Source: Methylomonas sp.
GTDB taxonomy: Bacteria; Pseudomonadota; Gammaproteobacteria; Methylococcales; Methylomonadaceae
DNA: 32,346 bases
NCBI GenBank assembly: GCA_002928965.1
Contig: PERU01000039.1
Coordinates: forward strand, 1 to 32,346
Reading direction: 5' to 3'
Both the position numbers and the translations under genes were made by a program. The notes below the pieces were generated by a model, which was not told the origin of the DNA, searched no databases, and worked only from the letters and a program-made list of their open reading frames with translations. This document shows positions 1 through 22,092 of the stretch, piece after piece; within the stretch, counting starts at the first letter, position 1; every line of letters begins with the position of its first letter.

Positions 1-506
1 CATTTTTAAACGATTCAACCGGATTTTGCACAAAACGTCGCGATTAAAAAGCATGAGCCATTCTGATTTCCAACCCTAGAATGCAACTAGCCTTTAAAAC
101 CTCACGGTAATAGAACAACAGATTCGTTGATCAGAAACCGGCTGTGTTGATTTGAGCATCGGCGCAGGCAATCCACCGAAGTCCACAAACCAAAGGGCCG
201 GATGACGTTATGGTTGAAGCAACTTTAAATCAGGACTTTTTAAAATCGTTGGTTGCTGCTGACAGCCTTACAGACCTCGGTGCTATGTGCCTGGGCATGG
301 TGTGTTTTAGGCGGTGTTAAAAAATGCATGATTCCCGATGATGCGCCTGTGCAGTTGTTTGGTGTGAACGGCCCAATTTTTGTCGGACGAACTTGGCTTT
401 GTAGTCTATTAATGGGTATTTCAAGCGCGGTGCCTGCTATTGGTTCTCAATAATTTGGTAACCTGAGATAATGCGCTTGGATTTCAACATAATTTTTTAG
501 CCAACG
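1..506. other. Region without a recognisable gene
   Basis: No convincing gene is visible before the efflux operon. A 66-codon frame at 253-453 begins with TTG, has no ribosome binding site and resembles no family I know. The promoter of the efflux operon probably lies here, but I cannot assign -35 and -10 boxes with confidence. Confidence 0.5.
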
Positions 507-1709
507 ATGACCATTACAAACAACAGGACGTTTTTTTACAAGCGCTGGCTATGGTTGGTTTTTGTATTGCTGCTAGGGCTTGTAGCCGGCCATCAATGGC
601 TAGAGCATGCGGCGCAGACCGATCAAGAAGCTCAGCCAACAATGGAAGTGTTTATAGGTGATATCGAAGAAAATGTCACCGCACAAGGTAAATTGGAACC
701 CAAAGAATATGTCGATGTTGGGGCCCAAGTGACAGGGCAATTGCAAAAGCTGTATGTGGATATTGGTGACAATGTATCTGCTGGCCAGTTGTTAGTGGAA
801 ATTGATCCTCGTGTCTACGCAGCCAGAGTGCAAGCGAATGAGGCCAATATCAAAAATCTACAGGCCCAATTGGCCGGACAGATGGCCCAAGAGGTGTTTG
901 CCCGCCAGCAATTTGAGCGTAATCGTGAACTGATGAAGAGTAAAGGCGTCAGTGAACAGGATTTTCAAAATAGCGAATTTAATTTTAAAAAAGCAGTTGC
1001 TACCGCCGATTCCATTCGCGCGCAAATTGAGCAAGTGCAATCGACTCTTAGTGGTGATCGCGCCAATTTAGGGTTTACCAAAATTTATGCACCCATGGAT
1101 GGCACCGTCGTTACTCGAACTGCACGGGTTGGACAAACCCTCAATGCCAATCAAACCACACCGATGATTTTGCAATTGGCCAAGCTGGATGCAATGACAG
1201 TCCGCGCCCAGGTGGCGGAAGCCGATGTGATGCGCTTAAAACCCAATCTTCCGGTGTATTTCACTACCTTGGGCGCTGGTGAGCGGCGCTGGTACGGCAC
1301 GATCAGGCAAATCATGCCTTCACCGGAAGTTGTTAATAACGTGGTGTTGTATAACGTATTGGTCGATGTAGACAACCGCGACCGTCAGTTGATGTCCGGC
1401 ATGAGTACCCAGATGTTTTTTGTGTTGGGTAGTGCCAAGCAGGTACCACTGCTGTCTATTGCTGCCCTGGGCCCCCGTTTGCCGGAAGCCGATAACGAAA
1501 AAGGTCGGGCGTATCGCGTAAAATTATGGAGTGGCGATGGTGTGCAAGAAACCATAGTGCATGTCGGTTTGCTGAACCGGCGTTTTGCTGAAATTCGTGA
1601 CGGGGTCAGTGTTGGGACCAAGTTACAGCCGCTGCTCAAGTTAGAAGACAAAGCCAGTGGCAAAAAAAAGGATAAAGGCTATCCAACTGCGGGTGTGCCA
1701 CGCTTATGA
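507..1709 (+). CDS. macA: MacA-like periplasmic adaptor (membrane fusion protein) of an ABC efflux pump
   Basis: This 400-aa HlyD/RND-type adaptor links an inner-membrane ABC transporter to an outer-membrane channel. Residues about 13-33 form one hydrophobic N-terminal anchor (RWLWLVFVLLLGLVAG), followed by a biotinyl-lipoyl half-motif (VGAQVTGQLQKLYVDIGDNV), a long coiled-coil hairpin (about 110-185), the second lipoyl half (IYAPMDGTVVTR) and beta-barrel/membrane-proximal domains. The length fits MacA. The stop overlaps the next start (ATGA at 1706-1709), so the two are translationally coupled. The ATG at 507 is the only start that gives a proper membrane anchor, although its Shine-Dalgarno sequence is poor. 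The substrate cannot be read from sequence; MacAB pumps export macrolides, peptides or lipid-like compounds. Confidence 0.9.
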   Translation: MTITNNRTFFYKRWLWLVFVLLLGLVAGHQWLEHAAQTDQEAQPTMEVFIGDIEENVTAQGKLEPKEYVDVGAQVTGQLQKLYVDIGDNVSAGQLLVEIDPRVYAARVQANEANIKNLQAQLAGQMAQEVFARQQFERNRELMKSKGVSEQDFQNSEFNFKKAVATADSIRAQIEQVQSTLSGDRANLGFTKIYAPMDGTVVTRTARVGQTLNANQTTPMILQLAKLDAMTVRAQVAEADVMRLKPNLPVYFTTLGAGERRWYGTIRQIMPSPEVVNNVVLYNVLVDVDNRDRQLMSGMSTQMFFVLGSAKQVPLLSIAALGPRLPEADNEKGRAYRVKLWSGDGVQETIVHVGLLNRRFAEIRDGVSVGTKLQPLLKLEDKASGKKKDKGYPTAGVPRL

Positions 1710-3664: not shown

Positions 3665-5016
3665 CCAAAAATATTGAAACCGTCGTTTGGATAGTTTCGC
3701 TGGTATTGACGGGATGTAATCTGGTGCCGACGTTTCAGTCTCCAAGCGTCGAAATTCCTGAGCAGTGGCGCAGGCAAACTGTTGCTGATAAAGCAAATGA
3801 CATTGACCCCCAATGGTGGACCACTTTCGGTAGTGCCGCGCTGAATAATCTGATTGAACGGGCACTTGCCTATAACAACGATTTAGCGGCAGCCGGTCAG
3901 CGGGTGGAGCAGGCCAGGGCGCAAGCAAAAATTGCCGGCGCTGAACTGTGGCCCGCTATTGGATTGGCAGGCAATTTTAATAGTACCCATAATGATCTGG
4001 GCCAAACCCAAAGAGAGACCGGCCAGCTTTCCGTGGGGTATGAAGTGGACTTGTGGGGCGCAAACCGCGCCAAACGGGATGCAGGTCAGGCCAGATTGCT
4101 TAGCGAAGTGTTTGCGCGCGATGCCCTGCAATTGGTTTTGATGGCGGATGTGGCGCAAGCCTATTTTAATCTTTTGGCGATACAGGAACGGAAACGGATT
4201 GCCAGTGAGTTTTTGCAAAACGTCGATGACGTTTTGGCTATTGTGGAGGCACGGTTTCAGGCAGGGGCTATTTCCGCAGTCGATGTGGCTCAACAACGAA
4301 CTGAACGCGCCAGTGCCCGTGCCAGCCTGGATTTGGTGATTCAGCAGCAAATGTTGGCTGAAAATACCTTGGCTATTTTATTGGGAGAGTCGCCGCAGGA
4401 GTGGTCAGAAACTGCAGGTTTATTAACTGAACTGCAGATGCCGCTGATCAATCCGCAACAACCGTCCAGTTTGCTGCAGCGTCGTCCAGATGTGCGACAA
4501 ATTGAAATGCAGTTACAGGCTGCCAATGCTGATGTTGGTATAGCGCTGGCAGGGTTTTATCCAAAATTGCAACTTAATCTGGATACCATTTTGGCTAATC
4601 CGCAGCCAGCGGGTCTGGCATTGGCCATGGCGGCTAATCTGGCCCAGCCCTTGTTTCAAGGTGGTCGGCTGGAAGGCGGTTTGGAAAATGCCAGGGCTCG
4701 CAATGCCGAGTTGGTCGAAATCTATCAGCAAACCCTGCTAACCGCTTTTAAAGACGTAGAGGATGCCAGTGCCATCAGGCGCCAGGCTAATTTGCGGTTG
4801 CAGGCTTTGGCGGAAGCAGTTGGTAAAGCCAATGAAGCCTACCAGCTTGCCCAAGATCAATATCGTGTTGGTGCGATTGACTATCAAACGTTATTGAATA
4901 CGCAGCGTACCCTGTTGACAGCTAAAAATAATCGAGTCCAAGCGCATTTGGATTTGCTGGTAGCGTTAGCCCAACTTTATAAGGCGTTGGGCGGTGGCTG
5001 GATGGCGGCAAGGTGA
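3661..5016 (+). CDS. NodT/TolC-family outer-membrane efflux lipoprotein
   Basis: This 451-aa outer-membrane factor completes the MacAB-type pump. I start it at ATG 3661, inside the macB stop, rather than at the longer in-frame opening at 3460, because 3661 gives a lipoprotein signal: a short hydrophobic stretch ending in lipobox LTGC with Cys19. After it come DPQWWTTFG (the usual NodT-family entry motif) and two TolC-like repeats of long helices and beta hairpins, e.g. SVGYEVDLWGANRAKRDAG in the first and LAQPLFQGGRLEGGLENARA in the second. Cargo is unknown. It ends 19 bp from a convergent gene; no clear terminator is seen between them. Confidence 0.9.
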   Translation: MTKNIETVVWIVSLVLTGCNLVPTFQSPSVEIPEQWRRQTVADKANDIDPQWWTTFGSAALNNLIERALAYNNDLAAAGQRVEQARAQAKIAGAELWPAIGLAGNFNSTHNDLGQTQRETGQLSVGYEVDLWGANRAKRDAGQARLLSEVFARDALQLVLMADVAQAYFNLLAIQERKRIASEFLQNVDDVLAIVEARFQAGAISAVDVAQQRTERASARASLDLVIQQQMLAENTLAILLGESPQEWSETAGLLTELQMPLINPQQPSSLLQRRPDVRQIEMQLQAANADVGIALAGFYPKLQLNLDTILANPQPAGLALAMAANLAQPLFQGGRLEGGLENARARNAELVEIYQQTLLTAFKDVEDASAIRRQANLRLQALAEAVGKANEAYQLAQDQYRVGAIDYQTLLNTQRTLLTAKNNRVQAHLDLLVALAQLYKALGGGWMAAR

Positions 5017-5610: not shown

Positions 5611-7365
5611 TCAGGTTCTGAAGTTACCCACAGTAGAGCGAAGTTGATTGGCCAATTCAAGTAATTCATTGCACGCATCAGCGGTATTTTTTGCACCAAT
5701 CGAGGTTTCTTCGGATACATGGCTAATGTTGCTGATATTGCGGTTGATTTCTTCAGCAACTGCGGTTTGTTCTTCCGCAGCATTGGCAATCTGATTATTC
5801 ATGTCGTTAATAGTATCGATTCTTTGACTGATCAAAGTGATTGAACCCCCTGCCGATGCGGCTTGTTCTACACTGGATGCCGCGCGTTTACGGCCATTTT
5901 CCATAACCGATACTGCCTGCTTGGCCCGATCTTGCAAGCGTTCTATGGTTTGCTGAATCTCCAGGGTGGAGTTTTGAGTCCGGCTAGCCAAGGTTCTCAC
6001 TTCATCAGCTACCACAGCAAAGCCACGACCTTGCTCACCGGCTCTGGCCGCTTCGATGGCAGCGTTCAAGGCCAGTAAATTGGTTTGTTCTGCAATGCCC
6101 TGAATAACACCTAACACTTCGCCAATACTGTTGCTGTCATTTTCCAGTTCATGGATGACGTTGGCGGCATTTTCGACTTCTGTTGCCAGACTGTTAATGC
6201 CATTGACAGCATCGTTAACAATGTTTTTACCACTGGTGGCTTCGTGATCGGCTGTTTCGGCTGCTTCAGATGCTTTAACAGCATTTCGGGCAACTTCCTG
6301 GACTGTGGAGGTCATTTGCTTCATGGCATTGGCCACCAGAGTGGTTTCCTGCAATTGACGTTCAACCCCTTTTTGAGTGGTTTGAGTGATGGTGGCCAGT
6401 TTGTGCGAGGCTTTGGCCAATTGTTCGAGGGTAACGCTGATTTCATCAACTGTTTTGGCAATTTTCTTCACAAAGGAGTTAAAGCTGCCTGCTACCCAGG
6501 CAAACTCGGATTTGCCTTTGGCATTCAACCGCGCTCTCAAGTCGCCACTGCCGCTGCAAATTTGCTGTAAGCTCAGGGCTAATTCAGTCAATGGGGTGAT
6601 GATGATTGAGTTCATCACAAAGTAACCGGTAAAGCCGATTATAAGCAGGCTGATCAATAAAAAACCTATTGCGTAATAGATCTCTGTTTTATAACTGGTC
6701 AGGGCTACATCAAATGGCGTAATAATTTCGAAGGCGCCATGCAGATCGCCGGCACGACGATTTTCCATTGTGTATCCGAGCAAGTCTTTGCCTTGGTCAT
6801 TATTCCAGATGGCTTGTGATGTCGCTGGGTCACCATGGCAAACTTCGCATTGCTTCACCAGTTTGACCGGTCTGAAGTATCTTATTTGTTTGTTATCTTC
6901 ATCGACAATGCTGTATTCAGTCAGTGAGGGATTGTTTTGGAAAATTTCCAACACCTTGCCTTCTGTTTCATCCGGTGTATTGCGGCTAGGATTGCGTGGA
7001 TTAAATGCCGGCGCTTTAAAACGAAATCCGCCTTCCTTGGCTTTGGTTTCAATTACATCCCATGCATTGGCAGTAGGTACTGTTTGGATAACAAATTGAC
7101 GGGCAAGGGCAGGGGATTTGTTTTGGATGGATTGCAGTAAGCTTTCTGGCGAATAAAGCCCGTCTTCCCATTTTTTTACCACATTGTCGCGGATGGATTC
7201 GGATACTATTAATAATTGGCGTGAAGCTTCTATCTTGCGTTCGATCAGGTTCTGTTTTTGCACATTTGTAAATACGATCAAAACCCCGATTCCAACGATA
7301 GTCAGCATGGTCATGGTTATGGCAACCACTTTTACACCCACTGAATGCCAATTCATAATAAACAT
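5611..7365 (-). CDS. Methyl-accepting chemotaxis protein with DUF3365-like c-heme sensor domain
   Basis: This transmembrane chemoreceptor is 584 aa from the chosen ATG at 7365, which has AAGGAG six bases upstream; a TTG two codons earlier is less likely. TM1 lies near 9-32, the periplasmic sensor at about 33-228 and TM2 near 229-252, followed by HAMP and a cytoplasmic MCP domain with the conserved tip [20 protein letters not shown] and [18 protein letters not shown]. The sensor holds a CEVCH motif (Cys173, Cys176, His177 in this numbering) preceded by [10 protein letters not shown], typical of DUF3365/Tll0287-like domains that bind covalent c-type heme. The receptor probably reports redox state, O2 or NO to the flagellar or other che system. 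It is transcribed away from the main che operon. Confidence 0.9.
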
Positions 7366-8214
7366 CCCCAACTCCTTAATTGACCTTAAAAGATGTGCCT
7401 ATACATTTATTTGCACTGAATCCGTACAGTTTCACGTAAGACATGCCGCAAAAATTATAGCTTACAATCTATCGACGACTATTTTTAAAACTTTACAAGA
7501 TATGCGGAAAATCAAAGTTTAATTGGTTTTTACGAGTAAATTCGGGCATACATTTCATGATTTGCCTATCAACCTGTGATGAGTCGGGTCAAATTAGGCT
7601 AATTTTGCCCATCCCCGCTATTACCCAATTCAATAAGGGCTGTTACGTTTGCCGAGTGCACAAGGGGCTATCGGCTACTTTTGAGGCATGGTTGATATAA
7701 ATGTTTATGTCTTATGGCTGGACAATCTACGCGACATTCCTATTCTCGTACAGGCTCCTAGCTTAACGTTTGCCGCCACAACTGTCGTAAACTATTAAAA
7801 ATAAAGAATGGTCATAAAACTTCTTGACGCTATCCCATGGCCGAAAAATTTAGTTTGGATTTTGACTTGAAGATTTAGGTTTCCCCGCTATTCAACCAGA
7901 TTGAATTGCCTTTTATAGTGAGTGTATTCCAATGAATGCCCTCCCAGAACAAGAGTTCCAGCCTGAGCAAGAAGCTGCTAACCGCTGGAATGGCAATTTC
8001 AGTCGAAATTACATTTTTGACTACAGTCTTCGATAGTTTAAAACTGTATATGCCATCGCAAAAATTCAACCTTTAGCATTTTCGAAGCTTGTCGCTATTT
8101 GTATTTTGATCCGAATCAACATAAGTTAGATAGACCCAACTAGAATTTAAACAGACGCTTTTGCCTGCGTTGTGATCTAAGCTCAATCTAAAACTAAATC
8201 ATGGAGAATTTCCT
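7366..8214. other. 849-bp gene-free region between divergent chemoreceptor genes
   Basis: No plausible protein or RNA gene was found. It must contain two divergent control regions: the minus-strand receptor reads left and the che operon right. At the right end, GGAG at 8203-8206 lies eight bases before the 8215 ATG and is a good ribosome binding site. I could not place a convincing sigma-70, sigma-28 or sigma-54 promoter. A 64-codon minus-strand frame at 7875-8069 has no RBS or family resemblance and is not called. The gap is long for so tightly packed a neighbourhood. Confidence 0.5.
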
Positions 8215-10134
8215 ATGGCTCTTGTGAAAAAACCAACCAATTCATCTGCAACAGCCCAAGCAGGAGGCAATACATCTGCAGCTGCCGCAGCTCGTGAAGC
8301 AGAAGCACAACGCAAAAAAGCTCGTACATTGGGCAAACAGCAACAGGCCGCTGAACGAATTGCCGCTGCGACTGGGCAACTATCTTCCGGCATCAACGAA
8401 GCAGCCTCCGCTGCCGAAGAATTAAAACGTGCCGCCGATCAAATTGCTACGGGGGCGGAAGAAGCCTCTGGCGCTGCCCAAGAATCGCTATCGGCATTCA
8501 AACTAGTCGGTGACTCCATTACTAGGCAATTGCAAAATGCCGATATCAGTCAAACCAAATCCGAAGCCGTACAAACCTTGGTCGCTAAAACCAGTGGTGA
8601 CATCGGGTTATTGGTTACCAACGTCGGCATTGCAGCGCAACGTCAGGCCGCTTCCGTGGTGATGGTCGCTGAACTGGAAAAGCAGGCCGCCAGCATTGGC
8701 GACATCGTCAAAGCGGTGGCCCGTATCGCCGATCAAACTAATCTATTGGCATTAAACGCTGCGATTGAAGCGGCGCGTGCCGGTCGACACGGCAAAGGGT
8801 TTGCTGTGGTCGCTGACGAAGTCAGGACCTTGGCGGAAACCTCGGAAAAAAGTGCCAAGCAGATTCAGGACTTGGTCGGGCAAATTCAAAAAGAAGTCAA
8901 AGTGATTGCCGAAGGCATTGGTGATTCTGCCAAAGCCGTGGAAAGTGAAGTAGAAAACGGCAAAACCATTACTCAACAACTCGAACAAATTCGCATCGAT
9001 ACCATCGACATTGTTAAAGGCATCCAGGAAATAGCCACCGGCGCATCTCAATCCGATATCGCTAGCAAACAAGCCCTAAAAGGCTCGGAAGATGTGGCGG
9101 CGGCGGCCGAAGAGCAATCTGCAGCCGCAGAAGAAGCCGCAAAAACCGTGGCCGAACAAGCTGAAGCCCTGGCGGAATGCGAACAGACCGCACAAAACCT
9201 GTCTGAACTGGCGGAAGATCTTAAAAACTCCACAGATGTAGCCAAAAGCGCCGAAGAAGTCGCCTCAGCCGCTGAAGAACTGTCTTCCGCCGTGCAGGAA
9301 ATCAATCGATCCGGCGCACAAATCATGGCGGCAATCGAACAAATTCGTAAAGGGGCTGAAGTACAAGCCGCCAGCACCGAAGAATCTTCCGCTGCGGTCA
9401 CTCAAATCGAAAAAGGCGTCGAATTGGCGCAACTAAGAGCCACCGCTGGCGGTGAAAAACTGTTGGCGATCAAAAACCTGTTAGGGGTCAATAAAGCCGC
9501 TGTTGATGGTCTGATTTCCGGTATTTCCGACGCGGCTAATGCTTCACGTGCCAGTATCAAACAGATTAAGGATCTGGAGTTAGTTTCCCGACGCATTGAT
9601 AAAATCGTCGACGCCATTACCACGGTATCCATACAAACCAATATGCTGGCGGTCAATGGCTCAATCGAGGCGGCTAGAGCGGGTGATTTTGGCAAAGGCT
9701 TTGTCGTGGTGGCTACTGATATTCGTAACCTGGCACACGATTCTGCTGAGAATGCCGATCGAATCAAAGACCTGGTGAAAGCGGTGCAAGATCAAATTGG
9801 CGTGGTCGGTCGCGATTTGGATGAAATTGTCGCTGCGGCTGCTGCAGAAGTCGAAAAGGCCAAAGTATCCACCAACAACCTGGTTATTATCGAAGCCGAT
9901 ATCCTGGACGTGGAAAAAGGATCTAACGAAATTTTGGCCGCCTCCAATGAAATTGCCGCAGCCATCGGTCAAGTAAAAAAAGGCATCGAACAAATTTCCG
10001 CAGCTGCCCAGGAAGCTGACAAAGCTGCGACCGAAGCCGCTTCGGCAGCCAGTCAGCAGGCTCAGGGTGCAGAGGAACTGGCGGCCGCGATCGAGGAAAT
10101 CGCCTCACTCGCGGACGAACTGCAAAGCGCCTGA
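8215..10134 (+). CDS. Cytoplasmic chemoreceptor with two tandem MCP signalling domains
   Basis: This 639-aa protein has no signal peptide or membrane segment and is almost all Ala/Glu-rich heptad helix. It contains two complete receptor tips: one around 168-207 ([20 protein letters not shown] at 171-190, then [16 protein letters not shown]) and one around 468-507 ([10 protein letters not shown] at 481-490, then [15 protein letters not shown]). The matching tip residues are exactly 300 positions apart. Candidate methylation helices rich in AAEEL/SAAEE patterns flank each tip (about 62-92, 290-320, 345-400, 590-635). No PAS, GAF, globin or other sensor domain is visible. DosM of Vibrio cholerae, also a double-signalling-domain receptor, stabilises cytoplasmic arrays; a similar role is inferred. 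It is the first gene of the che operon, 13 bp before the triple CheW. Confidence 0.9.
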
Positions 10135-10147
10135 TAGGGGGGGCATC

Positions 10148-11728
10148 ATGACAACAATTACCGAGGAACCGAAAGCAGCGCAAGCTGATGATGCCTTGCA
10201 AATTGAAGATGGTATCCTCGATCAGGATGAGTCAGATACCCGTCAATTTGTTACCTTCATCATTGCCGATGAAGTGTTTGCCGTGGATATGGCGCCGGTA
10301 CAGGAAATTATTCGCGTGCCAGATGTAGTTCGTGTGCCGCTGGCACCGAGCACTTTGGATGGTTTGGCGAATTTGCGTGGCAAGGTATTGCCTATCATTT
10401 CTTTGCGTCGCATTTTTACTTTTGCTGAGCTGGAGCACGATGATGCCACCCGCGCCCTGGTGATCGATATTGGTCAACCCTTGGGCTTTGTGGTGGATCG
10501 CGTTGCCAGTGTGGTGGGCGTCGAGCCAGAAAAAATCGAAAGTGTCGATTCGATTCGCAGTACCGTCAACACCGATTTGCTGTCCGGTATGATCAAAGAC
10601 GTCGGTGGACATGCCATGATCATGGTACTGGATTTTGAAAAACTGATCGCTCAGGAGTTCAGCGAAATCGCCAGTTTGGCCAGAACCGCCAGCATGACCA
10701 GCGGCTTGTCTGCCAGCAGCATTAGTGACGATGACGAAGATAACAGCGATGAATTGCAACTGGTCAGTTTTGATGTAGCTGGACAGGAATATGCGATAGC
10801 GATTGAAGATGTACAAGAGATTGTGCAGGTTCCCGAGCAGATCATTCATGTGCCACATTCAGAATCGCATGTGCTGGGTGTCATGACGCTGCGCAACCGT
10901 TTATTGCCTTTGGTGTCTTTGCGCAGGATGTTTGACCTGCCGCCGCAGGATGCTGACGAACGCAGTCGCATCGTGGTGGTTTCGCTGGGTAGCGCGTCGG
11001 TAGGCATCGTCATGGACAATGTCAACGAAGTGTTACGGGTATCTAAATCTGTTGTGGATGCCATGCCAGCTTTGCTGGCTCGGGATGGTGATCTGGCCGA
11101 TATTGCTGAAATTTGTCGATTGGAAGACGGTAAGCGTTTGGTTTCCATTATTTCCGCTCAGCACTTATTTAATCATTCCAGTGTCAAGGAGGCTTTGACC
11201 AACGTGGATAACTTAGAAGACGACAATCCTAACGCTATCGGCGCGGATATTGACGATGAGAATTCCGATGACGACGAACAAGTCGTAGTCTTTCGCCTGG
11301 ATCGTGAAGAATACGGCGTACCCATTGAAAGCGTCCAGGAAATTGTTCGAGTACCTGATGAACTGACGCATGTACCCAAAGCACCGGTATTTGTCGAGGG
11401 GGTTATTAATTTACGCGGTGCGGTATTGCCGGTCATTGATTTGCGTCGTCGTTTGGGGTTGGCGTCGGTTGAACGCTCAGAAGGGCAGCGGGTGATGGTA
11501 TTTCTGATTCAGGGAGCTCGAACCGGTTTTATTGTGGATTCAGTTGCCGAAGTGTTGAAAATTCACAAGTCAGCTATCGAGCCAGCGCCAAAATTATCCA
11601 GTGAACAATCCACTTTGTTGTCGAGGATGGCCAATCTGGAAAAACAAAAACGCATGGTGCAGTTGATCGAACCGGCTCATCTGCTGGAAGGCGCTGATAT
11701 TGCCGCCTTAGCAGGTATAACCGAATAA
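10148..11728 (+). CDS. Triple-domain CheW-type coupling protein
   Basis: This 526-aa protein consists of three CheW (SH3-like pair) domains in a row, at about 32-171, 202-343 and 377-515. Each has the typical core: FAVDMAPVQEIIRVPDVVRV, YAIAIEDVQEIVQVPEQI and YGVPIESVQEIVRVPDEL, followed by LRG/LRN-x-LLP/VLP-x-x-LRR. Very acidic linkers (around 192-202 and 354-377) separate them. I chose ATG 10148 because it follows a G-rich Shine-Dalgarno sequence and lies after the previous stop; the longer in-frame opening from 10067 overlaps the receptor and adds basic residues unlike a CheW. CheW normally has one domain of about 150-170 aa and links receptors to CheA, so three tethered copies suggest a baseplate cross-linker. 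Confidence 0.9.
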   Translation: MTTITEEPKAAQADDALQIEDGILDQDESDTRQFVTFIIADEVFAVDMAPVQEIIRVPDVVRVPLAPSTLDGLANLRGKVLPIISLRRIFTFAELEHDDATRALVIDIGQPLGFVVDRVASVVGVEPEKIESVDSIRSTVNTDLLSGMIKDVGGHAMIMVLDFEKLIAQEFSEIASLARTASMTSGLSASSISDDDEDNSDELQLVSFDVAGQEYAIAIEDVQEIVQVPEQIIHVPHSESHVLGVMTLRNRLLPLVSLRRMFDLPPQDADERSRIVVVSLGSASVGIVMDNVNEVLRVSKSVVDAMPALLARDGDLADIAEICRLEDGKRLVSIISAQHLFNHSSVKEALTNVDNLEDDNPNAIGADIDDENSDDDEQVVVFRLDREEYGVPIESVQEIVRVPDELTHVPKAPVFVEGVINLRGAVLPVIDLRRRLGLASVERSEGQRVMVFLIQGARTGFIVDSVAEVLKIHKSAIEPAPKLSSEQSTLLSRMANLEKQKRMVQLIEPAHLLEGADIAALAGITE

Positions 11729-11740: not shown

Positions 11741-12811
11741 ATGATTAAACTGTTGATTGTGGATGATTCGGCGCTGATGCGGCGTCAATTGACCAGTATG
11801 TTTCAGGAGGAAGGCGGTTTTGAAATACGGCAAGCCCGTAATGGCAAAGAAGCCGTCGATGAAAATCGTGACTTCCAGCCTGATGTCATCAGTCTGGACA
11901 TTAACATGCCGGAAATGGACGGCATCACTGCCTTGTCTTTAATTATGGCCGAACGCCCGGTGCCAGTGGTGATGGTGTCATCGCTGACTGAAAAGGGTGC
12001 ATTAGCTACTTTTGAAGCACTCAATTTGGGTGCCGTAGATTATATCGCCAAGCCCGATGGTACTATCTCCTTGAGCATAGGTCAGATCAAGGATGAACTG
12101 ATAGCTAAAGTTCGTGCCGCGGCTAAAGCTCGCATCAAACCCAAGGGGTCTGGGGTGAAGGGGCTTGCGCAACGATTAAGAGAGGAACGCGAGAAACCCA
12201 TCGCCCGCCCCGTTGCTGTCAGGCGGGGTGTAGCCGGTGAAGGCTTGGTAATCATTGGCGTTTCTACCGGTGGCCCTCGCACCTTGGAGGAAATTTTGCC
12301 ACTGTTGCCAGCTGATTTTCCCTGGCCGGTCTTAGTCGCCCAACACATGCCAGCGGCATTTACCCGCTCTTTTGCGGATAGACTTAACGCAATGTGCTCA
12401 TTACAGGTCGTTGAAGCCGCTTCGCCAACGCCGATTACACCGGGGACTATTTATATCGGCAAAGGCGGAGCAGACATGGTGCTTGGACAACGTGGCGGCA
12501 AATTGACCATCATTCCAAAACCGGAAAGTCGCGAGTACCTATGGCATCCTTCAGTGGAGTTGTTGGGACGTTCTGTGCTGGAGCATTGTGATCCATCAAG
12601 AGTGGTGGCTGTGATGTTGACCGGCATGGGGTATGACGGTGCGGATGCCTTTACCGAAATCAAGAAACGCGGTGGCCGCACAATTGCCGAGTCCAAAGCA
12701 ACGGCCGTAGTGTTTGGCATGCCTGCCGAATTAATCGACAGGGGCGGCGCTACTTTAGTGTTGCCAGCCGAAAAAGTGGCGGCCCAGATGAATGTTTGGG
12801 CCGGCAGATAA
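11741..12811 (+). CDS. cheB: CheB: chemotaxis response regulator / protein-glutamate methylesterase
   Basis: This 356-aa two-domain enzyme removes methyl groups from receptor glutamates and thereby resets sensitivity. The N-terminal receiver has Asp8/Asp9 and phosphorylation site Asp53 (SLDINMPEMDG) plus the conserved Lys in YIAKPDG. The C-terminal methylesterase begins near residue 170 and shows the catalytic triad Ser175 (GVSTGGP), His202 (VAQHMPAAFT) and Asp299 (MLTGMGYDGADAF). Length and layout are standard for CheB. It pairs with CheR two genes downstream, so the operon has a complete methylation-adaptation loop. It starts 12 bp after the CheW stop. Confidence 0.95.
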   Translation: MIKLLIVDDSALMRRQLTSMFQEEGGFEIRQARNGKEAVDENRDFQPDVISLDINMPEMDGITALSLIMAERPVPVVMVSSLTEKGALATFEALNLGAVDYIAKPDGTISLSIGQIKDELIAKVRAAAKARIKPKGSGVKGLAQRLREEREKPIARPVAVRRGVAGEGLVIIGVSTGGPRTLEEILPLLPADFPWPVLVAQHMPAAFTRSFADRLNAMCSLQVVEAASPTPITPGTIYIGKGGADMVLGQRGGKLTIIPKPESREYLWHPSVELLGRSVLEHCDPSRVVAVMLTGMGYDGADAFTEIKKRGGRTIAESKATAVVFGMPAELIDRGGATLVLPAEKVAAQMNVWAGR

Positions 12812-12823: not shown

Positions 12824-13447
12824 ATGGCCTTTATCAAGAAACAGACCAGTGAGTCGATTAACGAAGACGAACGAACCCAGCCCAGGGATTGCGAAAATCT
12901 GGTGATTCAGCTGGATAGCCCTGATCCGGTAGCTAGACGCTGGGCGGCTCGAGATTTGGCTGATTGTCCGGAAGCGTCATCAGCTCTGGTATCAAGGTTA
13001 AATCGCGAGAGCGACATATCTGTTCGCGAATTGATTCTCAGCTCACTCACCAGTCTGGGTGATGAGGTGGCTGTGGCTGGTCTGATTGAATGCCTGCGCA
13101 GTGAAGATGTCGGTTTGCGAAATGAATCAATTGAAGTGATGAAACACCTGCCTGACGAGGTGTCACCCATCATGCAAAATTTGTTGGTTGATGACAATGT
13201 CGATGTGCGCATCTTTGCGGTCAATATACTAGAATCATTGCGACACCCCGATGTCGAGTCTTGGTTGATCGAGGTCATTGAACATGACCAAAACGTCAAT
13301 GTTTGCGCGACAGCCCTGGATTTGTTGGTGGAGGTGGGCTCTAAAGATGCCGAGCAACCCATCACTCGATTGAAAGCCCGTTTTACTGAAGAACCCTTCA
13401 TCCAGTTTGCCGCTGATCTGGCCCTGAAACGTATCACTGAGGCCTAA
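12824..13447 (+). CDS. HEAT-repeat protein in the chemosensory operon
   Basis: This 207-aa soluble protein has about five tandem helical HEAT-like repeats from residue 25 to the end. Repeat units are recognisable by D-x-x-V/VR-x-x-A patterns: SPDPVARRWAARDLADC, ESDISVRELILSSLTSLGD, SEDVGLRNESIEVMKHLPD, DDNVDVRIFAVNILESLRHP and DQNVNVCATALDLLVEVG. There is no catalytic motif, signal or membrane segment. Such repeats form curved scaffolds for protein contacts. Placement between cheB and cheR, with AGGAG before the start and short spacers, suggests it binds a che component, perhaps CheB, CheR or the double receptor. The partner is inference only. Confidence 0.85.
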   Translation: MAFIKKQTSESINEDERTQPRDCENLVIQLDSPDPVARRWAARDLADCPEASSALVSRLNRESDISVRELILSSLTSLGDEVAVAGLIECLRSEDVGLRNESIEVMKHLPDEVSPIMQNLLVDDNVDVRIFAVNILESLRHPDVESWLIEVIEHDQNVNVCATALDLLVEVGSKDAEQPITRLKARFTEEPFIQFAADLALKRITEA

Positions 13448-13454: not shown

Positions 13455-14297
13455 ATGACCGACATCACCATTAGCGATGAGGATTTCCAAAAATTTCGGG
13501 AATTCTTTTATCGCAAAACCGGAATTCAGTTCGAGTCAACCAAGCGTTATTTTGTCGACAAACGGTTAGTCGAGCGTATTGTCGAGACGGGTAACGAAAA
13601 CTTTCGCGGTTATTTCACCTTATTACGTTTTCAGGCATCCGGCGAAGAGTTGCAGCAGTTGACCAATTTGATGACGGTTAACGAAACCTATTTTTTCCGC
13701 GAGGAATATCAATTCAAGTGCCTTGTGGAATCGATATTGCCGGAAATCACCACACGCAAAACCGACCACAGTCCTTTAAGGGTTTGGATCATGCCGTCAT
13801 CATCCGGCGAAGAGGCGTATTCGGTGGCCATTTACCTGCTGGAATACTGGGCGGGCATCAATGATTGGGATATCGAGATTATTTCCTCGGATATTGACAC
13901 ACGTATTCTGACCCATGCCCGCAAAGGGCTGTATTCTGCTCGTTCGGTGCAGGAATTGCCCGCTAAATTCCTATTACGCTACTTCAAGCGCACGGAAGAA
14001 GGCTATCAGATCAACGAAGACTTACGCCAGTCCGTGGAGTTTACCCGAGTTAACTTGGTAGAACGGGCCGATACTCGCGCCTACCGTAATTTTGATGTTA
14101 TTTTTTGCCGAAATTTACTGATATATTTTGACGATATTTCCCGCAAAGCCGCTGCGGAAACCTTCTACGATGCACTGAAACCCGGGGGGTACATTTGTCT
14201 TGGTCACTCGGAATCTATGAGTCGTATTTCTTCTTTGTACAAAGTACGTAAATTTCCAGAAGCTATCGTTTATCAAAAACCCATGGAGAATCGATGA
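13455..14297 (+). CDS. cheR: CheR: chemotaxis protein-glutamate O-methyltransferase
   Basis: This 280-aa SAM-dependent methyltransferase methylates receptor glutamates. The N-terminal helical domain (about 1-85) contains TVNETYFFREEYQF, the CheR hallmark. The Rossmann domain follows with SSGEEAYSVAIYL (SAM-binding loop; the usual C-STGEEPYS form is here PSSSGEEAYS), ISSDIDTRILTHARKGLYS and VIFCRNLLIYFD. The acidic residue at the end of beta2 that contacts SAM is retained. The C-terminus lacks the pentapeptide-binding extension or TPR of some CheR proteins. Its stop overlaps the cheY start (ATGA at 14294-14297). Confidence 0.94.
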   Translation: MTDITISDEDFQKFREFFYRKTGIQFESTKRYFVDKRLVERIVETGNENFRGYFTLLRFQASGEELQQLTNLMTVNETYFFREEYQFKCLVESILPEITTRKTDHSPLRVWIMPSSSGEEAYSVAIYLLEYWAGINDWDIEIISSDIDTRILTHARKGLYSARSVQELPAKFLLRYFKRTEEGYQINEDLRQSVEFTRVNLVERADTRAYRNFDVIFCRNLLIYFDDISRKAAAETFYDALKPGGYICLGHSESMSRISSLYKVRKFPEAIVYQKPMENR

Positions 14298-14665
14298 AAC
14301 GTATACTCATAGTCGATGATGCCGCCACGGTTAGAATGTTCCACCGTACCATCTTGGAAAAGGCCGGTTATGCCGTTGAAGAAGCAGTTAACGGTATCGA
14401 GGCACTGGAAAAGTGTCTACAAACACCCTTTGATCTTTATCTGGTTGACGTCAATATGCCCAAGCTGGACGGTTATGGCTTTTTACAGGAGCTTCGAGGC
14501 CTGGATATTCCACAAGCACCCGCCGTGATGATTTCGACTGAAGCGGAAGACAGTGATAGAAACCGGGCTTATGCCGCCGGTGCAAACGCTTACTTGATCA
14601 AACCTTCCAAGCCCGATCAACTGCTATTGCAAGTACGTCTGATGCTAGGGGAATCTTTGTCATGA
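14294..14665 (+). CDS. cheY: CheY-like single-domain response regulator (first copy)
   Basis: This 123-aa receiver domain has no output module. Acidic pocket Asp8/Asp9 (ILIVDDAATVR), phospho-acceptor Asp52 (YLVDVNMPKLDG), the switch Ser/Thr in MISTEAED and conserved Lys in YLIKPSKPDQ are all present. CheA should phosphorylate it. A good GGAG precedes the start, which overlaps cheR; its own stop overlaps the cheA start (ATGA at 14662-14665). A second CheY lies 3.1 kb downstream, so one may act on the output and the other as a phosphate sink; the sequence does not say which. Confidence 0.92.
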   Translation: MKRILIVDDAATVRMFHRTILEKAGYAVEEAVNGIEALEKCLQTPFDLYLVDVNMPKLDGYGFLQELRGLDIPQAPAVMISTEAEDSDRNRAYAAGANAYLIKPSKPDQLLLQVRLMLGESLS

Positions 14666-17448
14666 ATCCCTTACTGCAACAGTTTTTGTCGGAAGCCAGA
14701 GATTTCCTACAAGGCATCGGCGAAAAGCTGATGCAATTGGAAAAAGCGCCAACCGATGCGAGCTTGATGACCGAATTGTTCCGCTATGTCCATACCCTGA
14801 AAGGCAATAGCGGTCTGTTCGAATTTCCAGAGATGACCCGGGTATTACACGCCGGTGAAGACCTATTGGACGCCGTCCGGAATGGTCGAGTACGTTATTC
14901 TCAGGAGTTGGCGGATCGACTACTGGATGCCATGGATTTTGTCGGCATGTTATGCGATGAAATTGAACAAAATGGTGCTATCGGTGCTGTTTACGCCAAC
15001 GATTCGGCTCGGTTGGGTGAGAGTTTAAGAAAATTGAATGTCAGCGCTCATCATCCGGTTGAGGATAAAGCCAATCACAGTGATAACCCCGTTGAAACAA
15101 CTGAAAATCTGACCTCTGCACCCGCACGGCCCGAAACCGCGATTCCCGTAGAGCCACCGCCTGCTGCCTTGGCCGATATTCCGGAAGCCTTGCGCATGAA
15201 GGCCTATGCCATTGCTCAAGCCGGTACGCCGTTGTGTTGGTTGGTCTATACACCTGACGAGCAATGTTTTTTTCAAGGCCAAGATCCGTTTTTCCTAGCA
15301 CGACAAACTCCCGAATTTTTGTGGGGTGGTATCGTGTCTCGAGAAGACTGGCCCAAACTGGCCGAGATGGATGCCTATCGTTGTCTACTGGATTTTCATC
15401 TGCTGACTTCAGCTCCTCATACCACGCTGGATGAGCATTTTCGGTATGTAGCTGATCAAATCAAGATACAACCGTTATCGCCACTATCTTTCATCATCCC
15501 CGTTGGCGATACCAATGGCGGGCCAGTTTATGAAGACTTTGTTGGCGATGCGCTAGAATTTCTGGAAACCGGTAATTTTGGTGGACTTGAGCGCGCGGCA
15601 CTAACCATGCTGGAGCTTTCCAGTCCAGATTTGTGGTTTTCTTCGGCTTTACGTTGGCTGTTGCTGGTACTGGAACACGATCCCGATAATCGGCCGGTAT
15701 TAAGTGGTATTGTCGAGTCCCTGCGGAATCTAGATCAGCCCGAATGGCTTGATTTGCAAAGTCAATGGCAGGATCAAACAGTACTAACACCCACTATACC
15801 AGCGGCGGTATCCATCGAAAGCACCGAAACAGCTTTACCCTCAGGTATTGTTTCATTATCTTCGATCGATGATTTTGTTTTGTCGCTACTAGCGATCCAA
15901 AGACAGATTCTGTTGTTGCCCATTACAGAATCCTGGCAGCTTGGGCGCATAAAATCCGTAGCGGCCACGTTGCAGGGTTGCTTGAAAGCAATCGGTGAAT
16001 TTGATCAGTTAGCGAGCTTGGCATTCGCTGCCGAACAATCCTTAGTCCAATCTGCCGCAGTTCCTTTATTAAGCTGGCTTGATGAGCAGTTTCATATGCC
16101 CGGCAAAATGGCTGTACAACCCCTTGGATCCCAATCGATTGAACCATCCAAGCCAGCAGAAACCGTTGAAACCCAACCGGCCAAAACAGCCGTAGCCCAT
16201 GAAATATCAACCACGGCTGATATTGATGGTGAGATTAAATTTGGTCGAAGGGCTGAAGATGTTACCGCCGTGGGTGCTAAAAGTCTCAAGGTTGATCAGG
16301 CCAAGATCGATCGATTGATGAATCTGATCGGTGAAATGGTGGTTTCCAAAAATGCCTTGCCCTATCTGGCGGGTCGCGCCGAAGCGGTATTTGGCGTCAG
16401 GGATCTTTCCCGAGAGATTAAGGCTCAATATGCGGTGATCAATCGCATCGCTGAAGAAATGCAGGATGCGATCATGCAAGTTCGGATGATGCCGGTGTCA
16501 TTTGTATTTCAGCGTTTTCCGCGCCTGGTACGCGATACCGCACGCAAGTTGGGCAAGGACATCAATCTGATCATGGAAGGTGAAGATACCGAAGCCGACA
16601 AAAACATCATCGAATCGTTAGGCGACCCGCTGATTCACATCGTCAGAAACAGCCTTGATCATGGGTTTGAATTGCCGGAAATTCGCCGCGCCATTGGCAA
16701 ACCAATGGTCGGCACGTTAATCATCCGTGCTACCCAGGAATCGGATCGAGTGATCATTGAAATTATCGATGACGGTAAGGGCATCGATCCAGAAGTGATT
16801 AAACGAAAGGCCTATGAAAAAGGCATACTCGATGAAATGGCGTTAGAGCGTATCAGCGATCAAGAGGCTGTTAATCTGGTGTTTGCCCCCGGATTTTCCA
16901 CCGCCGACGTGATTTCGGATTTATCCGGTCGCGGCGTGGGTATGGATGTGGTGAAAACCGCTATTGAGAAGGTCAATGGGGCTATTTCGCTGGTCAGCGA
17001 AAAAGGCAAGGGCACCAAGATCCAATTGTCGTTGCCATTGTCGATGGCTGTCACCAATGTGATGATTATCGAATCCGATGGACAATTGTTTGGCATACCC
17101 ATGGATAGTGTGGTGGAAACCGTGCGGGTACCACGGGCTGATATTCGCATGATCAAACATAGTTTGGCTACCGTGTTACGCGGTCGCATCGTACCATTAA
17201 AACCGATCAACACCTTGCTCGAGATTTCTGCCCCTCCGCTAGCCAATGACGATGACGAACTGGCCGTATTGGTGGTACGTCTGGGCGAAGAGTCAGTGGG
17301 ATTACTGGTGGATGATTTTCGGGAAACCGTTGATATTATCCTTAAGCCGATGTCTGGGGTTCTGGCCCAAATATCGGCTTATGCCGGTTCTGCATTATTG
17401 GGAGATGGTTCGGTATTAATGGTGCTGAATATTAAGGAGATGTTCTAA
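14662..17448 (+). CDS. cheA: CheA histidine kinase with an unusual large middle region
   Basis: This 928-aa kinase phosphorylates CheY and CheB in response to the receptors. P1 (Hpt) lies at about 1-110 with phospho-acceptor His44 in RYVHTLKGNSG. From about 540 the classic core follows: P3 dimerisation (LKVDQAKIDRLMNLIGEMVV), P4 ATPase with N box HIVRNSLDHGFE (near 659), G1 DDGKGID (near 703), F box FAPGFSTA and G2 GRGVGMDVV (near 757), and P5 CheW-like regulatory domain (about 795-928). Between, instead of an obvious P2, lie a Pro-rich linker (about 130-175), an unassigned globular stretch (about 178-290) and helical segments (about 295-370 and 415-500). There is no C-terminal receiver. Neighbours: cheY upstream, STAS-like gene one base downstream (TAATG). 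Confidence 0.93.
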   Translation: MNPLLQQFLSEARDFLQGIGEKLMQLEKAPTDASLMTELFRYVHTLKGNSGLFEFPEMTRVLHAGEDLLDAVRNGRVRYSQELADRLLDAMDFVGMLCDEIEQNGAIGAVYANDSARLGESLRKLNVSAHHPVEDKANHSDNPVETTENLTSAPARPETAIPVEPPPAALADIPEALRMKAYAIAQAGTPLCWLVYTPDEQCFFQGQDPFFLARQTPEFLWGGIVSREDWPKLAEMDAYRCLLDFHLLTSAPHTTLDEHFRYVADQIKIQPLSPLSFIIPVGDTNGGPVYEDFVGDALEFLETGNFGGLERAALTMLELSSPDLWFSSALRWLLLVLEHDPDNRPVLSGIVESLRNLDQPEWLDLQSQWQDQTVLTPTIPAAVSIESTETALPSGIVSLSSIDDFVLSLLAIQRQILLLPITESWQLGRIKSVAATLQGCLKAIGEFDQLASLAFAAEQSLVQSAAVPLLSWLDEQFHMPGKMAVQPLGSQSIEPSKPAETVETQPAKTAVAHEISTTADIDGEIKFGRRAEDVTAVGAKSLKVDQAKIDRLMNLIGEMVVSKNALPYLAGRAEAVFGVRDLSREIKAQYAVINRIAEEMQDAIMQVRMMPVSFVFQRFPRLVRDTARKLGKDINLIMEGEDTEADKNIIESLGDPLIHIVRNSLDHGFELPEIRRAIGKPMVGTLIIRATQESDRVIIEIIDDGKGIDPEVIKRKAYEKGILDEMALERISDQEAVNLVFAPGFSTADVISDLSGRGVGMDVVKTAIEKVNGAISLVSEKGKGTKIQLSLPLSMAVTNVMIIESDGQLFGIPMDSVVETVRVPRADIRMIKHSLATVLRGRIVPLKPINTLLEISAPPLANDDDELAVLVVRLGEESVGLLVDDFRETVDIILKPMSGVLAQISAYAGSALLGDGSVLMVLNIKEMF

Positions 17449-17687
17449 TGACTATTGAGTTTAAAAAAAATCAGGTGTTTTTCAAAAATGAAGTGGGTGT
17501 AGAAGAGGCTGAGTTGTTACTGGAATGGTTACAGAAAAAAACTGCGCCCAAAGCCGATTTTTCGGCTTGTACTCATTTGCACGCGGCCAATTTACAGGTA
17601 TTAATGGCGACCACGCTAACAATTACTGCTTGGCCTGTCGACGAAACACTCACCGTTTGGTTACAGTCGGCACTAGGTGTATCTTAG
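17448..17687 (+). CDS. Small STAS-like protein
   Basis: This 79-aa protein directly follows cheA (stop and start share TAATG). Its middle resembles the STAS/SpoIIAA signature: DFSACTHLHAANLQVLMA aligns with the D-L-S-x-V-T-x-I-D-S-S-G-L family pattern. The phosphorylatable Ser of the DSSG loop is replaced (HAAN), and the protein is about 20-30 residues shorter than a typical STAS domain. It is therefore likely a non-phosphorylated binding module in this chemosensory complex. Family assignment is tentative because similarity is limited to this motif and the overall pattern. Confidence 0.65.
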   Translation: MTIEFKKNQVFFKNEVGVEEAELLLEWLQKKTAPKADFSACTHLHAANLQVLMATTLTITAWPVDETLTVWLQSALGVS

Positions 17688-17808: not shown

Positions 17809-18183
17809 ATGGCCAAAACAATTCTGATTGTAGATGACTCCGCAACCATGCTAATGAGCGTTAAATCCAACCTTGAAATGAATGGTTTCAAAGTGGAAAC
17901 CGCAAGTGATGGTGTACAGGCTTTAAACAAACTTAAGTCTGGCACCAAGCCAGATTTAATTATTACTGATATTAATATGCCCAACATGGGCGGACTGGAG
18001 TTGATCCAAAACGTGCGCGCGTTGCCAGGTTTTCGATTCGTGCCAATTCTGACCCTTACAACTGAAAGTCAGGCTGCTAAGCGCGATGAAGGCAAGAAAC
18101 TGGGTGCTACCGGCTGGCTGGTGAAGCCGATTGATGGCGCAGACCTTATTAAAGTGATTAAGCAAGTAGTGCCTGGAGCATAG
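17809..18183 (+). CDS. cheY: CheY-like single-domain response regulator (second copy)
   Basis: This 124-aa receiver domain has Asp9/Asp10 (ILIVDDSATM), phospho-acceptor Asp54 (IITDINMPNMGG), a T-T-E switch region (LTLTTESQ) and conserved Lys in WLVKPIDGADL. It resembles the CheY that usually precedes cheA in beta- and gammaproteobacterial che clusters. It lies 9 bp before the membrane MCP-like gene, whose C-terminus may hold a CheY phosphatase motif, so the two could be functional partners (inference). It differs clearly from the first copy and is not a recent duplicate. Confidence 0.93.
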   Translation: MAKTILIVDDSATMLMSVKSNLEMNGFKVETASDGVQALNKLKSGTKPDLIITDINMPNMGGLELIQNVRALPGFRFVPILTLTTESQAAKRDEGKKLGATGWLVKPIDGADLIKVIKQVVPGA

Positions 18184-18192: not shown

Positions 18193-19539
18193 ATGAACTC
18201 CGATTCAGAGGCTATGGCTAAAGCCTGTTTAGCCTGTCCGAAATACCGTGATCCTGAAGAAGCTGACCTTATTTTAACCCCCAATCATAAACTTCGTGTT
18301 TTGGGTGGTATTTTGGTGTCAATTATGGTGAATTTGATATTTGCCTACACCTTTGTGCCATGGTGGCAAGATACCTTTGTACACCCTTATAAATTAGAGC
18401 CACACTTTGAAGTATTAGTGGAAACTTTGTGGACCACCACCTTGTTTGTGCCACTATTGCTGCTTTGTATATGGCCTTTTTTTCGAGAAGAACTCAACGC
18501 CCTCCGCGGCATGATTAAGTCAAGAAACTGCCGAATTACTGCCAAAAAAGCCAAACAAAGAGCTGTTGCCGAGGAAATTCAGCACGCATCACCTTACCTT
18601 AATCTGATGTGCCAGCAGTTGGAAGGCGCTTTGAAGGATACAGAGTCTGGCGTACTCGCCGTAATAGAATGCCTTAATAAAGTGCATAATGTTTCCAGCA
18701 GTCAGGTGGAACGTATCACTGAATCCATGAATAACGGCATGATGCTGACAGAAATCATTCGTGAGCAATCTAGTCACAACAAGGATGTGGTAAATATTTT
18801 AGGCGGTCATGTCGAAGACCAGATGGATGAACTGAGTCGCAATCTTGACCGGGTGCAGAGCCTGGCTGAACAGGTTGTGGAATTGTCACCCTTGGTGGGG
18901 GTGATTTCCGAAATTGCCAAACAAACCAATTTATTGGCACTTAATGCTGCAATCGAAGCCGCCAGAGCGGGTGAAGCAGGTCGAGGTTTTGCCGTGGTCG
19001 CTGACGAAGTCCGCAAGCTATCCACCCAAACAGCCAGTGCGGCCGCCAACATTGAACTCAAAATCCGAATGGCCACCCAGGGCGCTGAAGCGGAACTCGC
19101 TGCAGCCAAGGAAGCTCTGAATAACCACACGTCCAATTCCAACTTAATAAAAATCATTGATGACCTGGAGACCGTTGAGAGTCGTTTTAATCAAGGCAGT
19201 ACGATGTTGCTGGATATGATTTTTGCAGTGGATGCAGGCAACAAAGAAGTCATTAACCGTTTGTCTGAAGCACTGGGCTTTCTGCAGTTTCAGGATGTAT
19301 TAAGACAACGTGTTGAGCAAGTTGAAACAGCCATCAAAGAGCTGGATGAACACTTTCTGGCGGTTGCTAACCGCCTCCCGGATCCCGAGTGGGATGGTAA
19401 TGTAACTCCTACGTTGAAGCAGCGTATGGAAGGCCACCTGGATCGTTATGTGATGACCAGTCAACGCGATACCCATAGAGCAGTAACCGGCTCAGTTACT
19501 TCCAACGATGATAATAGGCCTCAAATTGAGTTGTTTTAA
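18193..19539 (+). CDS. Short membrane MCP-like protein with N-terminal CxxC and CheZ-like C-terminal motif
   Basis: This 448-aa protein follows GGAGG at ideal spacing. The N-terminus has Cys12-x-x-Cys15 ([11 protein letters not shown]). Two membrane helices (about 34-55 and 79-97) leave a loop of only about 23 residues, so there is no periplasmic sensor domain. A cytoplasmic helical region leads to a full MCP tip near 240-270 ([35 protein letters not shown]). Downstream at 363-376 comes [14 protein letters not shown]: Asp368 and Gln372 have the D-x3-Q spacing of the CheZ active helix (FQDLTGQ). No canonical methylation-site pattern is seen and the C-terminal pentapeptide is absent. It may be a receptor-like scaffold with phosphatase activity rather than a ligand receptor. 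Confidence 0.85.
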
Positions 19540-19545: not shown

Positions 19546-20322
19546 ATGTCTGCCATTACATTAGTTGTTACGAATCGTAAGGGTGGTTCCGGAAAAACTT
19601 CGACTGCTGTCAATGTTGCAGCTGAACTCGCGTTTCTCGGACAACGGGTATTACTAATCGATTTGGATACCCAGAGTCATTGTGCATTGGGATTGGGTGT
19701 AAAACTAACCAAAAGCACACCAACCATTCATGGTTTCTTTGCCGGAAAGCATGCCCTAACTCCTGCTATACAGTCTACTCAATGGGAGAATCTAAACTTA
19801 ATTCCTGCCGATCCATTGTTCGAGCATGGATCTGGAATTAAGGACGACTTTTTATTACGTACCGCTCTGACATCTGAAGGTATATTGGAACAATACGATA
19901 TTTTGATTCTCGATACCCCTCCCTCATTAGATACCTTGTTACTGAATGCGCTCTATTCTGCAGACCGAGTCCTAGTACCGTTTTTACCGCATTTTCTAGC
20001 GGGAGAAGGCGTCCGTCAGCTGGCCAGAGTATTGTTTCGGGTGGGCAGCAATCGCGCCAATGAGGGCGTACGCATGCTGGTTGGCTATGTGCCGATCATG
20101 ATAGACAAGCGTATTGGGCAACATAAACAAGTCTCTGGCAATGTATCCAGTCAGTTTGGCGCGACACGGATGTTACCTGGCGTTCGCAATGATATTCGAG
20201 TAGCAGAATCCTTCGCCGTTGGTATGCCAGTACGTTACTACGCACCCAAAACCCGTGCGACCTTAGATTACCGAAGCTTGACTCTGTCCCTTCGACATTT
20301 ACTGGATGGCACGGACAAATAG
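19546..20322 (+). CDS. ParA/MinD-type ATPase of the chemosensory operon
   Basis: This 258-aa deviant-Walker ATPase has P-loop NRKGGSGKTST at 10-20, signature Lys in KGG, and the Walker A' region LLIDLDTQSHCALGLG; DTPPSLDTLLLNAL is the Walker B/switch region. It is not next to parB or a partition site but closes the che operon, 6 bp after the MCP-like gene. ParA homologues in this setting (ParC in Vibrio, PpfA in Rhodobacter sphaeroides) position or segregate chemoreceptor clusters. Given the cytoplasmic double receptor at the start of the operon, a PpfA-like role is a reasonable inference. No dedicated ParP-type partner was recognised, but the triple CheW could serve. Confidence 0.9.
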   Translation: MSAITLVVTNRKGGSGKTSTAVNVAAELAFLGQRVLLIDLDTQSHCALGLGVKLTKSTPTIHGFFAGKHALTPAIQSTQWENLNLIPADPLFEHGSGIKDDFLLRTALTSEGILEQYDILILDTPPSLDTLLLNALYSADRVLVPFLPHFLAGEGVRQLARVLFRVGSNRANEGVRMLVGYVPIMIDKRIGQHKQVSGNVSSQFGATRMLPGVRNDIRVAESFAVGMPVRYYAPKTRATLDYRSLTLSLRHLLDGTDK

Positions 20323-21082: not shown

Positions 21083-21114
21083 TTTTTTCCATCCACAACT
21101 CAGCACTATTTACT

Positions 21115-21594: not shown

Positions 21595-21610
21595 TTATTG
21601 GGAGTATGTC

Positions 21611-21967: not shown

Positions 21968-22002
21968 GGAATACAAATAATATAACTTGTGCAAGCGCTC
22001 AG

Positions 22003-22049: not shown

Positions 22050-22092
22050 TCTGACGAACTTGTTTCACGCGTGTTCCTAAAGGACTCAGCTC

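Follow-up and report, generated by a model that had tools for sequence, protein, structure and literature searches.

F9 arrays are membrane-free chemoreceptor lattices, characterised for the class as two-layered and cytoplasmic with an interlayer distance of about 35 nm, and the locus described here raises the question of how their double-headed receptor DosM, one chain with two different tips, is built into such a lattice. The build of DosM decides whether the layers are covalently bridged or not and equivalent or not, and also whether one chain with two different tips can be a receptor 'dimer'. The function of F9 arrays is given as unknown or poorly understood in the accessible parts of the published accounts (PMC7184735, PMC7534058). 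The DNA analysed (called the window, 32,346 nucleotides from Methylomonas sp.) carries the following genes, with dosM at their head.

8215..10134, + strand: dosM, soluble double-signalling-domain receptor, 639 aa (open reading frame, Pfam, 394 homologs)
10148..11728, + strand: cheW3, three CheW domains in three PF01584 stretches (frame open from 10067, ATG 10148 taken as the probable start)
11741..12811, + strand: cheB (Pfam)
12824..13447, + strand: HEAT-repeat protein, starting with MAFIKK (Pfam)
13455..14297, + strand: cheR (Pfam)
14294..14665, + strand: cheY-like response regulator 1 (Pfam)
14662..17448, + strand: cheA with Hpt, dimerisation, ATPase and CheW domains (Pfam)
17448..17687, + strand: 79-aa open reading frame, family unassigned, conserved after cheA (locus comparison)
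17809..18183, + strand: cheY-like response regulator 2 (Pfam)
18193..19539, + strand: MCP with two predicted membrane segments (Pfam and segment prediction)
19546..20322, + strand: ParA-family ATPase (domain search)

Tandem signalling domains, a triple CheW, a CheA/CheY/CheB/CheR set and a receptor free of sensor and membrane segment were all found in the window. According to the available portion of PMC9321776, tandem double signalling domains (DosM) and the triple CheW (CheW3) are unique to the F9 class, which is represented by full clusters in 64/2781 species and by partial clusters in eight, with frequent horizontal transfer. Because the double-signalling receptor, the triple CheW and the che set stand in one operon, the window holds, as judged from its two signature genes, a full F9 operon with a predicted DosM scaffold receptor at its head, and the comparison with DosM drawn in an earlier, sequence-only reading of this DNA is supported by the triple-CheW gene. 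That reading had also regarded a sensor-less double receptor at the head of a che operon as unusual, which does not hold: 98% of DosM homologs are without sensory domains in the part of PMC9321776 available, and cheW3 follows dosM in 74/74 loci.

This last count comes from a genome scan for dosM, which returned 80 loci. At loci with sufficient room the downstream order was fixed, with cheW3 in 74/74, cheB in 72/72, the HEAT gene in 69/69, cheR in 69/69, cheY in 68/68 and cheA in 58/58, followed by the second cheY in 55/57, the MCP in 51/57 and ParA in 30/57 within the searched stretch. Eight loci were dropped because their dosM frames were truncated or poorly trimmed, and locus L083 because its frame was broken, so that the extended alignment comprised 71 loci and the window; L083 is still counted in two earlier tallies of 73. 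The dosM gene was present on 24 plasmid records, and among seven plasmid-borne loci three (Agrobacterium, Novosphingobium, Rhizobium) carried CheX and PAS proteins without an annotated HEAT gene. Distribution among relatives of the host was patchy (3/61 genomes, host included and all of the host genus, with the best 20 candidates per genome scored). The 79-aa frame overlaps the end of cheA and was present in 66/87 loci searched and in every genome-scan locus with enough sequence; it gave no match in Pfam and appears STAS-like by eye only. By analogy with PpfA in Rhodobacter, the ParA-family ATPase closing the operon may position the array.

The host genome contains FliM/FliN-type genes, four CheA-type genes and 19 MCPsignal matches, two of them within DosM. 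Elsewhere in the genome, L007:1147-2271 and L011:1108-2235 encode MCPs that are free of membrane segments and carry a CZB zinc-binding domain at the C terminus; both are candidate partners of the cytoplasmic array. Upstream of dosM, 5611-7371 (− strand) encodes a divergent membrane MCP whose domains include a Tll0287-like sensor and a HAMP domain. Elsewhere in the window, HlyD-type, MacB-type and outer-membrane efflux genes at 507-5016 probably form a tripartite exporter, and the stretch 21064-26166 resembles an arsenic resistance cluster with two low-molecular-weight phosphatases (arsenate-reductase-like), a tandem ArsA ATPase, a glyoxalase-like protein and an SBF-family transporter.

The DosM chain was divided as follows.

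8323..9228, + strand: domain 1, first MCP hairpin, residues 37-338 (Pfam, self-comparison, model)
9229..10131, + strand: domain 2, second MCP hairpin, residues 339-639 (Pfam, self-comparison, models)
8710..8850, + strand: tip 1, residues 166-212 (homolog alignment)
9610..9750, + strand: tip 2, residues 466-512, a fixed variant with NGS and TDI (homolog alignment)

Pfam matched MCPsignal twice on the 639-aa product (E 5.2e-63), and at a threshold of E 0.001 families other than MCPsignal were absent. When the chain was compared with itself at offsets from 285 to 319, 100/339 positions were identical at offset 300 and 61/346 at the runner-up, 293; BLASTP of one half against the other gave a gap-free alignment with 78/240 identities (E 2e-24). 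The two hairpins would be the product of a tandem duplication, joined linker-free. No membrane segment was found in DosM by hydropathy scan (top 19-residue mean 1.19), and its sole proline is residue 7. Over 67 aligned DosM sequences, that of the window included, no sensor domain was found, and Pfam returned one marginal NET2A_C match (E 0.00088) in one sequence besides MCPsignal. The sequence-only reading was borne out in its observation of two full MCP tips exactly 300 residues apart (tip asparagines N181 and N481), no membrane segment and no sensor domain; its view that sensing is located elsewhere is supported by the 67 aligned sequences.

Tip statistics were compiled from 394 homologs, a single protein having been left out of the initial 395 for a length outside 600-700 aa; merging of identical rows gave 382. 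The tip-to-tip spacing was 300 in 391/394 homologs and 299, 304 and 305 in the other three, and between residues 41 and 637 insertions occurred in three sequences and deletions at four sites, in one sequence each. At tip 1, D173, A182, E202 and V203 were each present in 382/382, D201 in 381/382 and H192 in 378/382. Tip 2 had its own constants (G482, D502 and I503 each in 382/382, T501 in 378/382, I473 in 369/382, S483 in 330/382) and restricted alternatives, with E or D at position 491 in 382/382 and F or Y at position 492 in 379/382. Common to both tips were R188/R488, E185/E485 and F196/F496, with H188 as the single exception. Even homologs at 42-50% identity retain G482 and D502-I503 in tip 2, N481 being replaced by S; the second tip is accordingly a variant under maintenance and shows no decay. 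The view that it is degenerate (NGSI, TDI) was mistaken, since G482, D502 and I503 are invariant in 382/382 unique homologs.

DosM contained seven methylation-type motifs, counted with a pattern that we take to describe such sites, against a mean of 0.5 and a maximum of 4 in 1000 shuffles. The first half contains four of these motifs and the second half three; each was retained in 57 to 77 of 79 sequences, and 5/7 sit 101-110 residues from the hairpin centre. Conservation of the motifs in both halves, together with cheR and cheB in the operon, suggests that adaptation acts on DosM, probably by methylation. A purely structural role, as assumed at first reading, is unsupported by these motifs, and DosM is probably more than a scaffold.

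The relative position of the two domains was analysed by mean-field direct coupling analysis of the 382 unique homologs (effective number 237), for which 412/604 positions were used and low-entropy ones left out. Intradomain antiparallel lines appeared as expected at i+j near 383 and 984 (mean scores 0.315 and 0.323). Interdomain lines of comparable narrowness were present between helix 1 and helix 4 (N1-C2, i+j 681, mean score 0.228), between helix 2 and helix 3 (C1-N2, i+j about 680, mean score 0.297, restricted to i<310 and j>372 and so clear of the junction) and between helix 1 and helix 3 (N1-N2, j-i 300, mean score 0.212), the weakest being that between helix 2 and helix 4 (C1-C2, mean score 0.159). 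The line centres 681 and 300 had been fixed beforehand, and 383, 984 and 680 after the first covariation result. In each of six blocks 0/122 shifted lines reached the observed mean, and in site-independent tree simulations 0/11 and 0/17 (28 in total) attained the observed line means in any block. As the interdomain lines rise above both the shifted-line and the simulation controls, domains 1 and 2 very probably pack together side by side, level with respect to the tips, and on these couplings we regard a mixed pairing of domain 1 with domain 2 as highly likely.

The strongest covarying pair overall, 280-401, is interdomain. Of the top 60 pairs, intradomain lines account for 8 and interdomain lines for another 8, both counted to a distance of 5, and the remaining 44 fall on no line of either kind. 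A scan of about 160 line positions with the full set gave maxima at 681, 679 and 301, and at 324 for helix 2-helix 4; this blind scan was modest, with a robust z of 2.4-3.6 for the interdomain lines. Several blocks had their peak elsewhere, often on short edge lines, when mutual information was used or when either of two subsets (119 and 263 sequences) was analysed. When the top 20 pairs were removed all four interdomain lines held, and after removal of the methylation zone (80-115 residues from the tips) the first three were still above all shifted lines, while the helix 2-helix 4 line was matched by 6/122. Between the halves no gene conversion was seen, the same-residue rate at offset 300 being 0.3195 against 0.3190 expected. 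Instead of contact, the interdomain signal could also reflect a common partner or an effect of the method: the methylation zone is close to several top pairs (280-401, 293-387, 294-385), the effective sequence number is modest, and most of the top 60 pairs fall on no line. Such an origin is nevertheless distinctly improbable, as three of the four lines survive removal of the zone at the geometrically expected places and the lines are absent from the 28 tree simulations.

The same couplings bear on a parallel extended rod, in which tip 1 would pair with tip 1' and tip 2 with tip 2', one end per baseplate. This arrangement is compatible with the picture of V. cholerae DosM in PMC7534058, whose accessible text leaves parallel or antiparallel unstated, and with the conservation of two complete tips. 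It would however place residues 280 and 401 about 18 nm apart on a continuous helix, although they form the strongest covarying pair, and it has to contend with interdomain lines that neither the 122 shifted lines nor the 28 simulations reach; we consider it unlikely. Covariation is blind to the difference between a chain folded back on itself and an antiparallel dimer. The two domains meet at the following junction.

9223..9249, + strand: domain junction, residues 337-345, K-N-S-T-D-V-A-K-S (residues 339-341 modelled as non-helical both times)

Two AlphaFold2 monomer models were calculated, one per alignment (A1, 67 of 72 full-length sequences; A2, 140 diversity-chosen sequences), with pLDDT 89.3 and 90.5 and pTM 0.62 and 0.72. 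Both models had a helix break at 339-341, and the first had no helix break at the tips. In structural searches one model matched the single-chain four-helix bundle 5vju (196/196 at 2.3 Å, 139..542) and the other the single-chain four-helix bundle 8d9o (194/194 at 2.0 Å, 139..540), each match spanning both tips. As judged from alignment end points, not from coordinates, the predicted monomers look folded back with adjacent tips. The sequence-only reading had proposed structure prediction of the dimer and had named a folded-back hairpin as the outcome that would speak against it; the monomer (not dimer) models look folded back with the tips side by side. A monomer model is silent on dimers, and homologous hairpins may be placed together by habit. 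At the junction the heptad phase is shifted, indels are almost absent, and helix propensity at 337-341 ranks 41st worst among 610 windows; helix 1 is modelled from residue 22.

Taken together, the covariation, the helix break and the bundle matches disfavour a simple parallel rod, so that a folded-back chain or an antiparallel rod remain. In the latter, two chains would lie head to tail with helix 2 running straight into helix 3, giving a rod of roughly 45 nm in which either end combines tip 1 of one chain with tip 2 of its partner; both baseplates would then meet an identical mixed tip and DosM would bridge the layers. The domain 1-domain 2 contacts predicted by this arrangement are identical to those of a folded-back chain, it agrees with the extended rod depicted in the available part of PMC7534058, and the spacing of 300 in 391/394 homologs is in its favour. 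Against it stand the break at 339-341 in both monomer models and the phase shift of the heptads, and helix 1, beginning at residue 22 beyond the midplane, would presumably run into the end of helix 4. We hold the antiparallel rod for a tenable but tentative alternative, short of even odds. Bridging by oppositely directed tips, as first proposed, has become doubtful in view of the fold-back-like models and the interdomain covariation, although an antiparallel rod would still bridge.

The best explanation in our view, with a probability of roughly 0.45, is a DosM scaffold whose single chain would fold back at residues 339-341 and whose two hairpins would pack as one mixed four-helix bundle with tip 1 adjoining tip 2, one DosM replacing the usual receptor dimer. 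Several points speak against it: according to the review PMC7534058 (accessible text), DosM appears in cryo-tomography of V. cholerae as an extended rod tipped at both ends; the junction is nearly indel-free, which a loose turn would not need, and its helix propensity is only 41st worst; the first model lacks a helix break at the tips; and the helix 2-helix 4 line is weak, the blind scan modest and 44/60 of the top pairs off all lines. No statement on the polarity of DosM, parallel or antiparallel, was found in the accessible portions of the literature. A mixed-tip receptor in either form, as a single-chain stand-in for the dimer or as an antiparallel bridging rod, is likely, and the published rod picture would then have to be revised or given a polarity.

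In the folded-back bundle the N terminus would come to lie at the base, and its first residues recur in the operon.

8215..8232, + strand: conserved N-terminal peptide MALVKK of DosM (start comparison)

The HEAT protein has a counterpart, MAFIKK, at 12824-12841. With starts as placed by us, the pattern M-[AGPST]-[LIFM]-[VIL]-[KR] was present in 72/78 DosM and 60/71 HEAT proteins and in none of the starts selected for seven other F9 genes; 16/75 membrane MCPs had it, at least ten of them as MALVKK or MALVKR, and in these a dosM was probably taken for the MCP as its paralog. The background was 115/2696 open frames, DosM and HEAT included. A whole-genome DNA pattern of the start with the second lysine occurred at seven places, against two for the reversed control, and only dosM and the HEAT gene had long frames there, the others being of 16-66 codons. 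Among four distant annotated HEAT proteins the pattern was found in one (Azospirillum, MALVKA) and was absent in three. The peptide common to DosM and the HEAT protein is a possible docking signal, to go by this start comparison. A literature search for a link of HEAT repeats with chemotaxis, CheW and the chemoreceptor array returned none, and this search was limited, so that absence is unproven.

In the folded-back arrangement, the CheA/CheW3 baseplate would see two different fixed tips of DosM, and sites for CheR/CheB methylation would be kept in both halves. The basic N-terminal helix and the MALVKK peptide at the bundle base would lie midway between the two layers of the array, in a position to tie the layers together or dock a partner, and sensing would be left to other receptors of the same array. 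The analysis shows the family signature, the operon, the spacing and asymmetry of the tips, the covariation between the domains and a monomer model resembling a fold-back; we infer that the chain folds back in the cell, that it is methylated, and the part played by its N terminus as well as membership of the array. If the mixed tips are true, every DosM-bearing array site would present two permanently different tips to the kinase layer; if the domain pairing is true, the picture of double-layered sensory arrays could change. The peptide with which both DosM and the HEAT protein begin gives a second lead, to the positioning or linking of arrays.

The receptor family as such is known (F9 DosM), and what appears new is the pairing of domain 1 with domain 2 suggested by covariation. 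The closest known system is cluster I of V. cholerae, likewise F9, in which DosM (VC1403) has two signalling domains and is accompanied by a triple CheW neighbour, CheA and a membrane MCP, as given in the accessible text of PMC7534058; DosM homologs are nearly all sensor-less in the part of PMC9321776 available. Over a plain rod in which like tips pair, covariation and models here favour pairing of domain 1 with domain 2, VC1403 having been compared by its description only. The cytoplasmic cluster of Rhodobacter sphaeroides (TlpT, PpfA) shares cytoplasmic receptors and a ParA-like ATPase in the che operon, but differs from the window in being described, in the accessible parts of PMC2829493 and PMC3964821, without a double-tipped receptor or a triple CheW. 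Each half of DosM is similar to the cytoplasmic domains of single-tip MCPs such as Thermotoga 2ch7 and E. coli Tsr (for 2ch7_B the match to model residues 337..639 covers 303 residues at 3.0 Å), whereas DosM, unlike these, has two hairpins per chain and fixed differences between its tips.
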